Part shown: positions 4,661 through 16,566 of the stretch, piece after piece | How the letters are laid out: every line of letters begins with the position of its first letter | How positions within the stretch are numbered: position 1 is the first letter of the stretch | Origin: Henriciella algicola | GTDB taxonomy: Bacteria > Pseudomonadota > Alphaproteobacteria > Caulobacterales > Hyphomonadaceae | Reading direction: 5' to 3' | Length of the DNA: 64,000 nucleotides | Assembly (NCBI RefSeq): GCF_003576245.1 | Contig: NZ_QWGA01000003.1 | Coordinates: 1,302,001 to 1,366,000 of the forward strand | Notes under the pieces: generated by a model | What the model was told of the DNA's origin: nothing | What the model saw: the letters and a program-made list of their open reading frames with translations, nothing else | Databases searched by the model: none | Made by a program: the position numbers and the translations under genes

Positions 4661-4736
4661 TGGTGCCGCCTAGGTGACTTGAACACCTGACCCCCGCATT
4701 ACGAATGCGATGCTCTACCAGCTGAGCTAAGGCGGC
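4661..4736 (-). tRNA. tRNA-Thr (anticodon CGU)
   Basis: The reverse strand folds into a full cloverleaf. The acceptor stem is GCCGCCT with AGGCGGC, the D-stem GCTC with GAGC, the anticodon stem TCGCA with TGCGG around the loop TTCGTAA (anticodon CGT in DNA, reading ACG), and the T-stem AGGTG with CACCT around TTCAAGT. CCA is encoded at the 3' end. The downstream trailer can pair with the 3' half of the acceptor stem (see findings). Confidence 0.95.
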
Positions 4737-14889: not shown

Positions 14890-15852
14890 CTATTCTTCGG
14901 TCGCTTCTTCTTCCGTCATTTCAGGCTCTGCCGGCGTGTCGCCAGCGGCAGGTTTGACGAAGCGCAGGGTCATGCGGTCGGATTCGCCGATCTCTTCATA
15001 TTTGGCAGCATCGAAGCCCTCAGGCGCGTTGCCCTCGCCATCCGTCGTGCGGGAGACGGGCGGCAGGGTCCAGACACCGAACGGGTGGTCAGCCGTATCA
15101 GCTGGATTCGCGTTGATTTCACTGGCTTCCTCAAGAACGAAACCTGCTTCTTCAGCAAGGCGCGTGACATAGTCCTGATGGACATAGCCGGACGGGGCTG
15201 ACGGGTCCTGGTTTAGAGCCGATGGCAGGCGGTGCTCAACGACGCCGAGGACGCCGCCCGGCTTCAGCACGGCGAAGGCATCGTTGAAGAACTTGTCGGC
15301 ATGGTCACCGGACATCCAGTTATGGACATTGCGGAAGGTCAGCACGGCATCAACGCTTTCCGGTTCGCCAAGCGGGCCGGATTGGGAGTCGTAATAGGTG
15401 TACTGAAGTTCGCCAAACAGGTCCGGGTACGGGCTGTAATTGGCTTTGTAGGCTTCGAGTGCCTGTGCTGCGCGATCGGAACGGTCCGGGCTGATGACGG
15501 CGGCGATGAAGGTGCCGCCATTCGCGTGCAGCCAGGGGGCCAGGATGTTGGTGTACCAGCCACCGCCCGGCCAGACTTCCATCACGGTGTCGTCGCCTTC
15601 AATGCCAAGGAATTCGAGCGTCGCGACAGGATTGCGATACTCATCGCGCGCGATCTCGTTCGGGGCGCGCCAGCTGCCTTCGAGCGCGTCCTCAAGGGTA
15701 AACGAAGCGGGGGTAGCATCAGCTTCCATGCCGGCATCGGTTTCGCCAGGTGCAGGTGGGGTTGCGACCTCAGGGGTCGTATCATCACTGCCACCACAGG
15801 CAGCGAGGGTCAGGGCCAGAAGGCTGGTTGCGATAATCCGGTTCATTTTCAT
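14890..15852 (-). CDS. Lipoprotein with class I SAM-methyltransferase-like domain
   Basis: A 320-residue protein with a lipoprotein signal (LLALTLAACGG, lipidated Cys at about 19), an acidic/proline linker, then a Rossmann methyltransferase-like fold. A motif I-like segment reads DTVMEVWPGGGWYTNILAPWL, and a motif post-II/IV region reads DAVLTFRNVHNW. It resembles the exported 'predicted methyltransferase' group (COG4798-like). The puzzle is location: a lipoprotein outside the cytoplasm should not meet S-adenosylmethionine. It may bind another ligand or have lost activity. The C-terminal tail is very acidic. A single-gene unit ending at a strong terminator. Confidence 0.8.
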   Translation of the reverse strand: MKMNRIIATSLLALTLAACGGSDDTTPEVATPPAPGETDAGMEADATPASFTLEDALEGSWRAPNEIARDEYRNPVATLEFLGIEGDDTVMEVWPGGGWYTNILAPWLHANGGTFIAAVISPDRSDRAAQALEAYKANYSPYPDLFGELQYTYYDSQSGPLGEPESVDAVLTFRNVHNWMSGDHADKFFNDAFAVLKPGGVLGVVEHRLPSALNQDPSAPSGYVHQDYVTRLAEEAGFVLEEASEINANPADTADHPFGVWTLPPVSRTTDGEGNAPEGFDAAKYEEIGESDRMTLRFVKPAAGDTPAEPEMTEEEATEE

Positions 15853-15866
15853 CTCCTCATTTTCCC

Positions 15867-15894
15867 CTTGAACGCGGGGCCGTGTTCCCCAAAT
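15867..15894 (+). promoter_or_regulatory. Sigma-32 (RpoH) promoter of hsp20
   Basis: CTTGAA (15867-15872), a 14-nt spacer and CCCCAAAT (15887-15894) match the heat-shock promoter consensus CTTGAA / CCCCATNT at all but one position. Transcription would start near 15902, giving a leader of about 125 nt before the Hsp20 start at 16030, long enough to hold the thermometer described next. The sigma factor itself is encoded at 34964-35848. Confidence 0.75.
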
Positions 15895-15985
15895 ACACCA
15901 TGACCGGGCGCTGCCAAGCGGGCCCGGTCCGGTAATCTGCCGGCGCCGATGGACGGGCCGGAGCGACAGATAAGCCGAAATGATG

Positions 15986-16024
15986 ATCCGGCACGCCCGG
16001 ATACAGTTGCTTAGAGAGGACTGT
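15986..16024 (+). ncRNA. ROSE-type RNA thermometer in the hsp20 leader
   Basis: Two abutting hairpins end 6 nt before the ATG. The first is ATCCGG/CCGGAT (15986-16002). The second pairs ACAGTTGCT (16003-16011) with AGGACTGT (16017-16024) around TAGAG. In it the Shine-Dalgarno AGGA (16017-16020) is held by TTGCT with one unpaired G (16009), the hallmark of ROSE elements of rhizobial and enterobacterial small heat-shock genes: U-A, U-G, bulged G, C-G, U-A. Melting at high temperature would free the ribosome-binding site. Read by hand, not by a covariance model. Confidence 0.75.
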
Positions 16025-16029
16025 TTGTC

Positions 16030-16506
16030 ATGAGCACGATTGATCTCACCCCCCTTTACCGCACGATGGTTGGCTTTGACCGTATGGCCAATCTGATCGA
16101 TTCAGCCAGCCGCCTTGATGGCGCGCAGGGCTATCCCCCTTACAATATCGAGCGCGTTGCCGACGATGCATTCGCCATCGAAATCGCGGTTGCCGGTTTC
16201 GCTGAAGACGAGCTCGACATTGAAACCAATGAAAACCTGCTGACTGTTGCTGGCAAGAAAGCCGCCAGTGAAGACGGCGAAGAGCGTCAGTATCTGCATC
16301 GCGGCATTGCCGAGCGTGGATTCCTGCGCCGGTTCCAGCTTGCTGACCACGTCATTGTGACGGGTGCATCGCTGCAGAACGGTCTGCTTCGCGTCGAACT
16401 CCTGCGTGAGCTTCCTGAAGCCAAGAAGCCTCGCAAGATCGAGATCGGCTCGCCCAGCCAGCCAAAGTCGAAGCCGAAACTGATCGGCAAGCAGTCTGCC
16501 GCGTAA
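16030..16506 (+). CDS. Small heat-shock protein, Hsp20/IbpA family
   Basis: A 158-residue alpha-crystallin-domain chaperone that holds unfolding proteins for ClpB/DnaK. The N-terminus (DLTPLYRTMVGFDRMANLID) matches IbpA-type bacterial sHsps. The crystallin domain spans about 38-130 (YNIERVADDAFAIEIAVAGF through GLLRVELLRELPEAKKP), and the C-terminal IEI anchors oligomers. Expression appears controlled twice: by a sigma-32-type promoter and by a ROSE-type thermometer immediately upstream. A terminator follows at 16536. Confidence 0.95.
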   Translation: MSTIDLTPLYRTMVGFDRMANLIDSASRLDGAQGYPPYNIERVADDAFAIEIAVAGFAEDELDIETNENLLTVAGKKAASEDGEERQYLHRGIAERGFLRRFQLADHVIVTGASLQNGLLRVELLRELPEAKKPRKIEIGSPSQPKSKPKLIGKQSAA

Positions 16507-16535
16507 CCCCTGCGCGTGGACCCCTGAGACGAGAA

Positions 16536-16566
16536 AGCCCCGGACGTGATGTCCGGGGCTTTTTTC
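16536..16566. terminator. Bidirectional intrinsic terminator between hsp20 and GST
   Basis: A perfect 10-bp stem, AGCCCCGGAC and GTCCGGGGCT, with a 5-nt loop and followed by a run of six T on the plus strand (ends hsp20). On the minus strand it is followed by TTTCTC, so it may also end the convergent GST gene. Confidence 0.85.

Follow-up and report, generated by a model that had tools for sequence, protein, structure and literature searches.

The 64-kb stretch of Henriciella DNA analysed here (hereafter, the window) carries a gene for an IbpA-like small heat-shock protein (sHSP), preceded by a promoter of the sigma-32 type and a structured leader and followed by a terminator-like hairpin. The features are as follows, with bulged bases in square brackets.

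15867–15894, + strand: sigma-32-type promoter, with CTTGAA at 15867–15872, a 14-nt spacer and CCCCAAAT at 15887–15894
15902–15929, + strand: H1, 5'-terminal hairpin, gaccgggc[G]CUGC-caa-GCGGgcccgguc, with the single bulged G15910
15930–15977, + strand: H2, compound hairpin, apical part ccggc[G]CCG-augga-CGGgccgg, with bulged G15945
15986–16002, + strand: H3, sequence-variable hairpin adjoining the thermometer hairpin, placed by the Henriciella alignment and a position test
16003–16024, + strand: H4, predicted ROSE-type thermometer hairpin, ACAG-UUGCU-UAGAG-AGGA-CUGU, with UUGCU at 16007–16011 and bulged G16009
16017–16020, + strand: Shine-Dalgarno sequence AGGA within H4, 9 nt before the ATG at 16030
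16030–16506, + strand: hsp20, IbpA-like small heat-shock protein of 158 aa, matching PF00011 and NF008013
16531–16565, + strand: intrinsic terminator-like hairpin 3' of hsp20, with a 15-bp stem (-26.1 kcal/mol) and a T run

The hsp20 product matched PF00011 above the cut-off (E = 6.4e-18) and the IbpA model NF008013 with E = 2e-47, below that model's cut-off, and a genome-wide search returned hsp20 as the only PF00011 match in this Henriciella genome. The closest homologue is from H. barbarensis (98% protein identity). Residues Y35 and R96 are the aligned counterparts of Y34 and R93 of E. coli IbpA. Given a divergent gene start at 15852 and the terminator-like hairpin at 16531–16565, the hsp20 transcript probably contains this single gene. 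The hairpin was absent from a consensus terminator scan, probably because its stem extends into the T run. The divergent gene (14890–15852, - strand) encodes a methyltransferase-domain protein; with 14 nt between its start and the hsp20 -35 box, the promoter of this gene would have to overlap the hsp20 promoter or leader. Elsewhere in the window, a tRNA gene (4664–4736, - strand) was the sole Rfam match at gathering score.

The sigma-32 (RpoH) consensus comprises CTTGAA and CCCCAxAT-like boxes at fixed spacing. Boxes of this form and spacing are present at 15867–15894, where the initial annotation had read a CTTGAA-N14-CCCCAAAT promoter. CTTGAA-N12..16-CCCMAWAT has one match in the window versus 0.01 expected (100 shuffles), and a looser version was found four times in the whole 3.2-Mb genome (twice when the pattern was read backwards), with one of the three other occurrences preceding dnaK. 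Across 10 Henriciella sequences CTTGAA and CCCAAAT are invariant and most of the spacer is variable; within CCCCAAAT the first C alone varies. Transcription of hsp20 would start at about 15900, with RpoH as the probable sigma factor. The dnaK gene of the same genome has a sigma-32-like promoter (G000:C2:396515-396542, L184) followed by a structured leader of ~130 nt (start MGKIIGIDLGTTNSC).

Downstream of the promoter, the initial annotation had described a minimal element of two abutting hairpins about 125 nt away. Both hairpins were recovered (H3 at 15986–16002 and H4 at 16003–16024), but the leader is not minimal, as it is about 130 nt long and has four hairpins, H1 and H2 having been overlooked upstream. 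The distance holds from the -10 box to AGGA (122 nt) and not to H3 (91 nt). Multi-hairpin sHSP leaders, with two to four hairpins, are a feature of the ROSE-like class described in PMC3669281, and a four-hairpin hsp20 leader agrees with it.

The structure was evaluated on A2, a sequence-only alignment of 51 rows in which 50 homologous leaders, taken from Hyphomonadaceae-like records, accompany the window; one row, from Hirschia (L047), aligns poorly upstream and was retained. For H1, H2 and H4 together (37 pairs), 93.9% of cells were paired and 23 pairs had two-sided changes, compared with 15.6 pairs in shuffles. Two-sided changes affected 193 cells, versus 65.9 in shuffles and 23–47 in slid controls, and the slid structures were 29–45% paired, though the counted structure came partly from the window's own fold and so had an advantage over its slid versions. 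When no structure was supplied, RNAalifold returned 30 pairs from A2, 19 of them with two-sided changes. H1 contributed 12 pairs, of which 9 had two-sided changes, with 96.1% of its cells paired, and the three helices of H2 contributed 17 pairs, of which 12 had two-sided changes; the H4 core is near-invariant in Hyphomonadaceae and most H4 pairs carry little covariation themselves.

H3 was too variable to be aligned by sequence across Hyphomonadaceae and was therefore assessed by position. In 49 of the 51 leaders a stem ends no more than 4 nt from H4, with a mean z of -2.0 (100 shuffles each), a comparison in which the stem position itself had no shuffled control. In an alignment of the 10 Henriciella sequences that included H3, 98.6% of cells were paired, and two of the six H3 pairs had two-sided changes.

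R2, a covariance model built on the entire leader, scores the window at 123 bits; it matched 96 of 105 family genomes once each and left nine without a match; some of these genomes had supplied training sequences. Among 240 class genomes searched outside the family set, eight matched at E <= 0.01, of which two were Hyphomonadaceae and the other six were weak (best 6e-5), those in genomes G321 and G190 lying directly before hsp20 matches. Searched against 30 other loci and E. coli (31 in total), R2 matched L072 alone well and gave a weak minus-strand match in L070. Given these few matches outside Hyphomonadaceae, the four-hairpin form, as modelled, is largely family-specific.

Within this leader, AGGA had been proposed to lie hidden behind TTGCT with G16009 bulged. 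Comparison and the leader fold to 16035 both gave this imperfect core pairing (U16007-A16020, U16008-G16019, C16010-G16018 and U16011-A16017, with G16009 bulged), and longer folds disagree. The ROSE-like class, as set out in the available text of PMC3669281, places U(U/C)GCU against the Shine-Dalgarno sequence in leaders of three to four hairpins, with B. japonicum hspA as its first member; the window has UUGCU at 16007–16011 in its 3'-proximal hairpin. Of 81 sequences (the window and 80 homologues), 80 have Y-Y-GC-Y followed by AGG(A/T) ahead of hsp20, and the sole miss (L014) is a filter artefact, since its TTGCT..AGGG was dropped by the filter. At least three outer H4 pairs were present in 72 of the 81, whereas such a stem with 4–14 nt spacing arose in 0.04% of 16,200 base shuffles. 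Beyond Hyphomonadaceae the flanking pairs of H4 co-change (CAG/CUG, CAU/AUG, UAU/AUA).

That UUGCU, the bulged G and AGGA are precisely conserved in both alpha- and gammaproteobacteria, whereas their flanking pairs differ between groups, argues against the hairpin being a static structure over the ribosome site, one that lowers translation at all temperatures and leaves heat control to the sigma-32 promoter only. The same core is also thermosensitive elsewhere, where it has been measured (PMC3669281, PMC11342760). What speaks for a static structure is the energy model, as the modelled rise in AGGA accessibility is shallow and folds that include coding sequence change little with temperature. 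On balance we regard it as very unlikely.

By ViennaRNA, H4 taken by itself is a weak hairpin, whose free energy goes from -7.1 kcal/mol (25 C) through -3.6 (42 C) to -2.2 (50 C). For the leader folded to the AUG, H4 pair probabilities were 0.85–1.0 at 25 C and 0.59–0.99 at 42 C, and the unpaired share of AGGA rose from 0.10 to 0.24 at 42 C. However, H4 was the best modelled fold only for RNA ending at 16032–16035. With 12 to 61 coding bases added, non-H4 folds won, the four checked H4 pairs had probabilities of 0.01–0.27 at 25 C, and 16004–16010 paired with the coding start or 15985; when 21 coding bases were included, AGGA had an unpaired share of 0.28 at 25 C and of only 0.41 at 42 C. Among 50 relatives folded with 21 coding bases, a crude test, the ROSE closing pair was in the best fold at 25 C in 27, and the mean went from 0.34 to 0.42, with a rise in 43. 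Deletion of G16009, which the initial annotation expected to lock the hairpin, did so in silico, with AGGA unpaired at <=0.01 up to 50 C (21 coding bases). The energy model gives no credit to the non-standard pairs of the ROSE core and does not count as positive support. Overall, its support for thermosensing is weak and mixed, and the comparative evidence therefore carries the thermometer claim. The energy model also allows the UUGCU arm to pair with the beginning of the coding sequence (16004–16042), which may reflect a second switch state or an artefact.

The Rfam search that had been suggested for this element, with the ROSE (RF00435, gathering score 45) and ROSE_2 (RF01832, gathering score 65) models, gave no match in the window or the genome at gathering or permissive thresholds. 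When 20 of the 80 homologous loci were scanned, L058 alone had a sub-threshold ROSE match. Of 289 alphaproteobacterial genomes, RF00435 found eight at E <= 0.001 and one above its cut-off; an hsp20 match was found in 162 of 230 alphaproteobacterial genomes (a separate draw). We rejected the Rfam miss as a refutation of the ROSE reading, because a model that passes its cut-off in 1 of 289 genomes is too narrow. Many alphaproteobacterial sHSP thermometers probably go unannotated by public RNA models.

Judged from sequence conservation and covariation, the hsp20 leader is very probably a ROSE-class RNA thermometer behind a sigma-32/RpoH heat-shock promoter. The transcriptional and translational heat control claimed for this gene by the initial annotation is thus partly supported: promoter and hairpin conservation and covariation speak for it, and the energy folds with coding sequence against it. 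The combination of heat-shock promoter and ROSE-class thermometer is a known one, and the window holds an ordinary class member; double heat control of an sHSP gene has been established in another system (PMC3669281). In the proposed mechanism, heat would increase transcription from 15867–15894, and the transcript, beginning at about 15900, would fold into four hairpins, of which H1–H3 are stable in the model. In H4 the Shine-Dalgarno sequence AGGA would be kept paired with UUGCU around a single bulged G, and in the cell warming would presumably open H4 and allow ribosomes to load. As a first guess, H1 (and in Hyphomonadaceae H2) may serve as a 5'-end stabiliser and a folding anchor that isolates H4.

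The bulged G of H4 recurs in the upstream hairpins. H1 (C[G]CU...GGG), H2 (C[G]CC...GGG) and H4 (U[G]CU...AGG) all match Y[G]CY...RGG, and the H1 motif can be seen as resembling the ROSE core in GC-rich form. To describe this hairpin beyond the family we used the regions upstream of hsp20 in 60 alphaproteobacterial genomes (one region per genome), hand-picked from the upper part of the hsp20 match list with some rows passed over. A best 5'-bulge hairpin scoring >=17 was present in 52 of the 60 leaders, and the bulged base was G in 47 of these 52 versus 115 of 441 in shuffles. In the 47, the pair before the bulged G was Y-G in 40 and the pair after it C-G in 44.

A strict version of the motif was fixed after the alphaproteobacterial sets had been seen and before 40 leaders from non-alphaproteobacterial members of the phylum, all of them with a match in the search, were fetched; as the motif was defined on the former, the latter are the sole fresh test. 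The final count applied one motif and one window to all sets, whereas earlier counts took any best single-bulge hairpin. The strict motif was detected in 49 of 50 Hyphomonadaceae leaders (dinucleotide shuffles, 6/1000), 24 of 30 homologues L051-L080 (6/600), 44 of 60 other alphaproteobacterial hsp20 leaders (24/1200) and 14 of 18 second hsp20 genes of alphaproteobacteria (L158-L175; 15/360), and in 8 of 774 control 175-nt stretches of L001-L080. In the fresh test it was found in 24 of 40 leaders (3/800), a count reached after the window was widened, as the first window clipped short leaders and gave 15/40. By family, these comprised f173 (6/7), f182 (6/7), f177 (7/10), f209 (2/3) and families represented once (3/5), with none in f186 (0/6) or f195 (0/2). 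At least two separate bulged-G hairpins were counted in 33 of the 50 Hyphomonadaceae leaders, with coarse 25-nt binning. Some second alphaproteobacterial hsp20 genes carry a UCGCU..AGGA core.

The position of the hairpin was compared with that of the promoter. By a looser rule, 47 of the 60 alphaproteobacterial leaders had a bulged-G hairpin, and a CTTGA-like box lay within 70 nt upstream of it in 43 of the 47 and 34–38 nt before it in 31; in the base-shuffle control such a box was found in 15.7% of 70-nt stretches. In Hyphomonadaceae leaders with the hairpin, the box was present in 39 of 50, with 36 of those 39 at 35–38 nt, and in L051-L080 in 21 of 26, with only 8 of those 21 at 34–38 nt. 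On these sequences, promoter and 5' hairpin tend to sit in register, which would put H1 close to the 5' end of the transcript.

An inverted repeat at the expected transcription start and between divergent genes could also be a DNA operator and not an RNA hairpin. We consider this highly improbable, as both the many U-G/G-U pairs (24 of 51 rows at one position) and the unequal arms, with a single bulged G on the 5' side only, fit RNA and not a DNA palindrome.

Our leading guess for H1 and H2, at odds that we put at about even, is that they do no more than cap the 5' end, which would protect the mRNA, and act as a scaffold that stops H4 from mispairing, the bulged G having no partner. H1 begins about where transcription should start, and for hairpin I in Pseudomonas the proposed roles are to stabilise the mRNA and to assist folding (PMC3669281). 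There, hairpin I stays closed to 50 C, disrupting four of its pairs exposes the Shine-Dalgarno sequence and derepresses at 25 C, and hairpin II alone still thermoregulates (PMC3669281). A cap or scaffold, however, needs neither a fixed bulge identity nor fixed flanking pairs, and yet both are strongly constrained across genera.

That the bulged-G hairpin sequence is more constrained than mere stability requires is one of several observations in favour of a protein-feedback receptor, in which the leader mainly serves chaperone autorepression, H1 and H2 (and H4) are repeated recognition sites and temperature is one of two inputs. E. coli IbpA binds its own 5'UTR through Arg93, and Tyr34 is also needed (PMC10474464); the window protein has both (R96, Y35), as do 80 of 80 homologues. 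The E. coli ibpA and ibpB genes, both IbpA-repressed, each carry the motif in their leaders (2 and 1 of 1000 shuffles, respectively, score >=20), whereas the dnaK leader of the Henriciella genome, likewise behind a sigma-32-type promoter, lacks a bulged-G hairpin in its predicted fold. On the other side, E. coli rpoH, which has been linked to IbpA control (PMC10474464), has no bulged-G hairpin within 250 nt of its start. The six leaders of the gammaproteobacterial family f186 also lack it, although V. harveyi IbpA represses itself and the f186 genomes appear to be Vibrio-like. Moreover, an Arg/Tyr pair that is invariant cannot be correlated with H1. We therefore regard a receptor role as possible but rather unlikely.

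Two further observations concern these leaders. In the E. coli ibpA-ibpB intergenic region (L188), the hairpin atgctc[G]CCgtcaGGgagcat is accompanied by UCGCU..AGGA just before ibpB, so that ibpB seems to have its own two-part leader. The non-alphaproteobacterial f186 leaders (L197, L203-L206, L211) have UUGCU..AGGA in 6/6, and in those that were folded (L197, L203, L205) a long helix takes the place of the bulged-G hairpin ahead of the thermometer.

The literature searched held no description of a conserved bulged G in the 5' hairpin, the older founding ROSE and ibpA papers lying outside its scope, and in the text of PMC3669281 that was searched neither 'bulge' nor 'bulged' occurs; an earlier description is possible.

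In comparison with known systems, the window shares with the ROSE thermometers of sHSP genes (RF00435) the UUGCU core, the bulged G, an sHSP gene, the 3'-proximal thermometer hairpin, four hairpins and a heat-shock promoter, but RF00435 does not recognise it, and in the one weak match inspected (L058) that model does not start until the 3' end of the bulged-G hairpin. The E. coli ibpA thermometer (RF01832) has the same core and a 5' hairpin with aggacgc[G]CC..GGgtgttct; RF01832 fails on the window, and the annotated 73-nt ROSE of E. coli begins inside the 3' strand of that 5' hairpin (L082:235-307). The ROSE-like ibpA elements of Pseudomonas likewise combine a stable hairpin I, a melting hairpin II and sigma-32 transcription, but they are 61–62 nt long with two hairpins (PMC3669281), compared with about 130 nt and four in the window. 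ROSE-G thermometers of ABC-transporter genes (PMC12857270) share the bulged-G grammar in the Shine-Dalgarno hairpin; they have CUGCU with two opposed bulged Gs, whereas the window has UUGCU with one, and at U16008-G16019 it has a wobble pair and no opposed bulge. The systems studied for IbpA autorepression combine a thermometer leader with an IbpA-like protein that has both essential residues (Arg and Tyr), as the window does; in the available text of PMC10474464, autorepression was tested in gammaproteobacteria and only suggested for alphaproteobacteria, and the RNA site was not mapped.

These comparisons raise the possibility, which we hold tentatively and think improbable in its full form, that sHSP mRNAs of proteobacteria have a second hallmark, a 5'-terminal Y[G]CY...RGG hairpin, duplicated in Hyphomonadaceae, that would act as a recognition module, most likely for chaperone autorepression, so that the leader would read temperature through H4 and free chaperone through H1 and H2.

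The predicted thermometer would extend a known class to a marine family that public RNA models miss. The role of the 5' hairpins is described as 'not fully understood' in PMC3669281, and the conserved bulged G makes it addressable base by base with respect to mRNA life, thermometer folding and chaperone binding. If H1 is a chaperone binding site, two separately studied controls of one gene would be united in one RNA.
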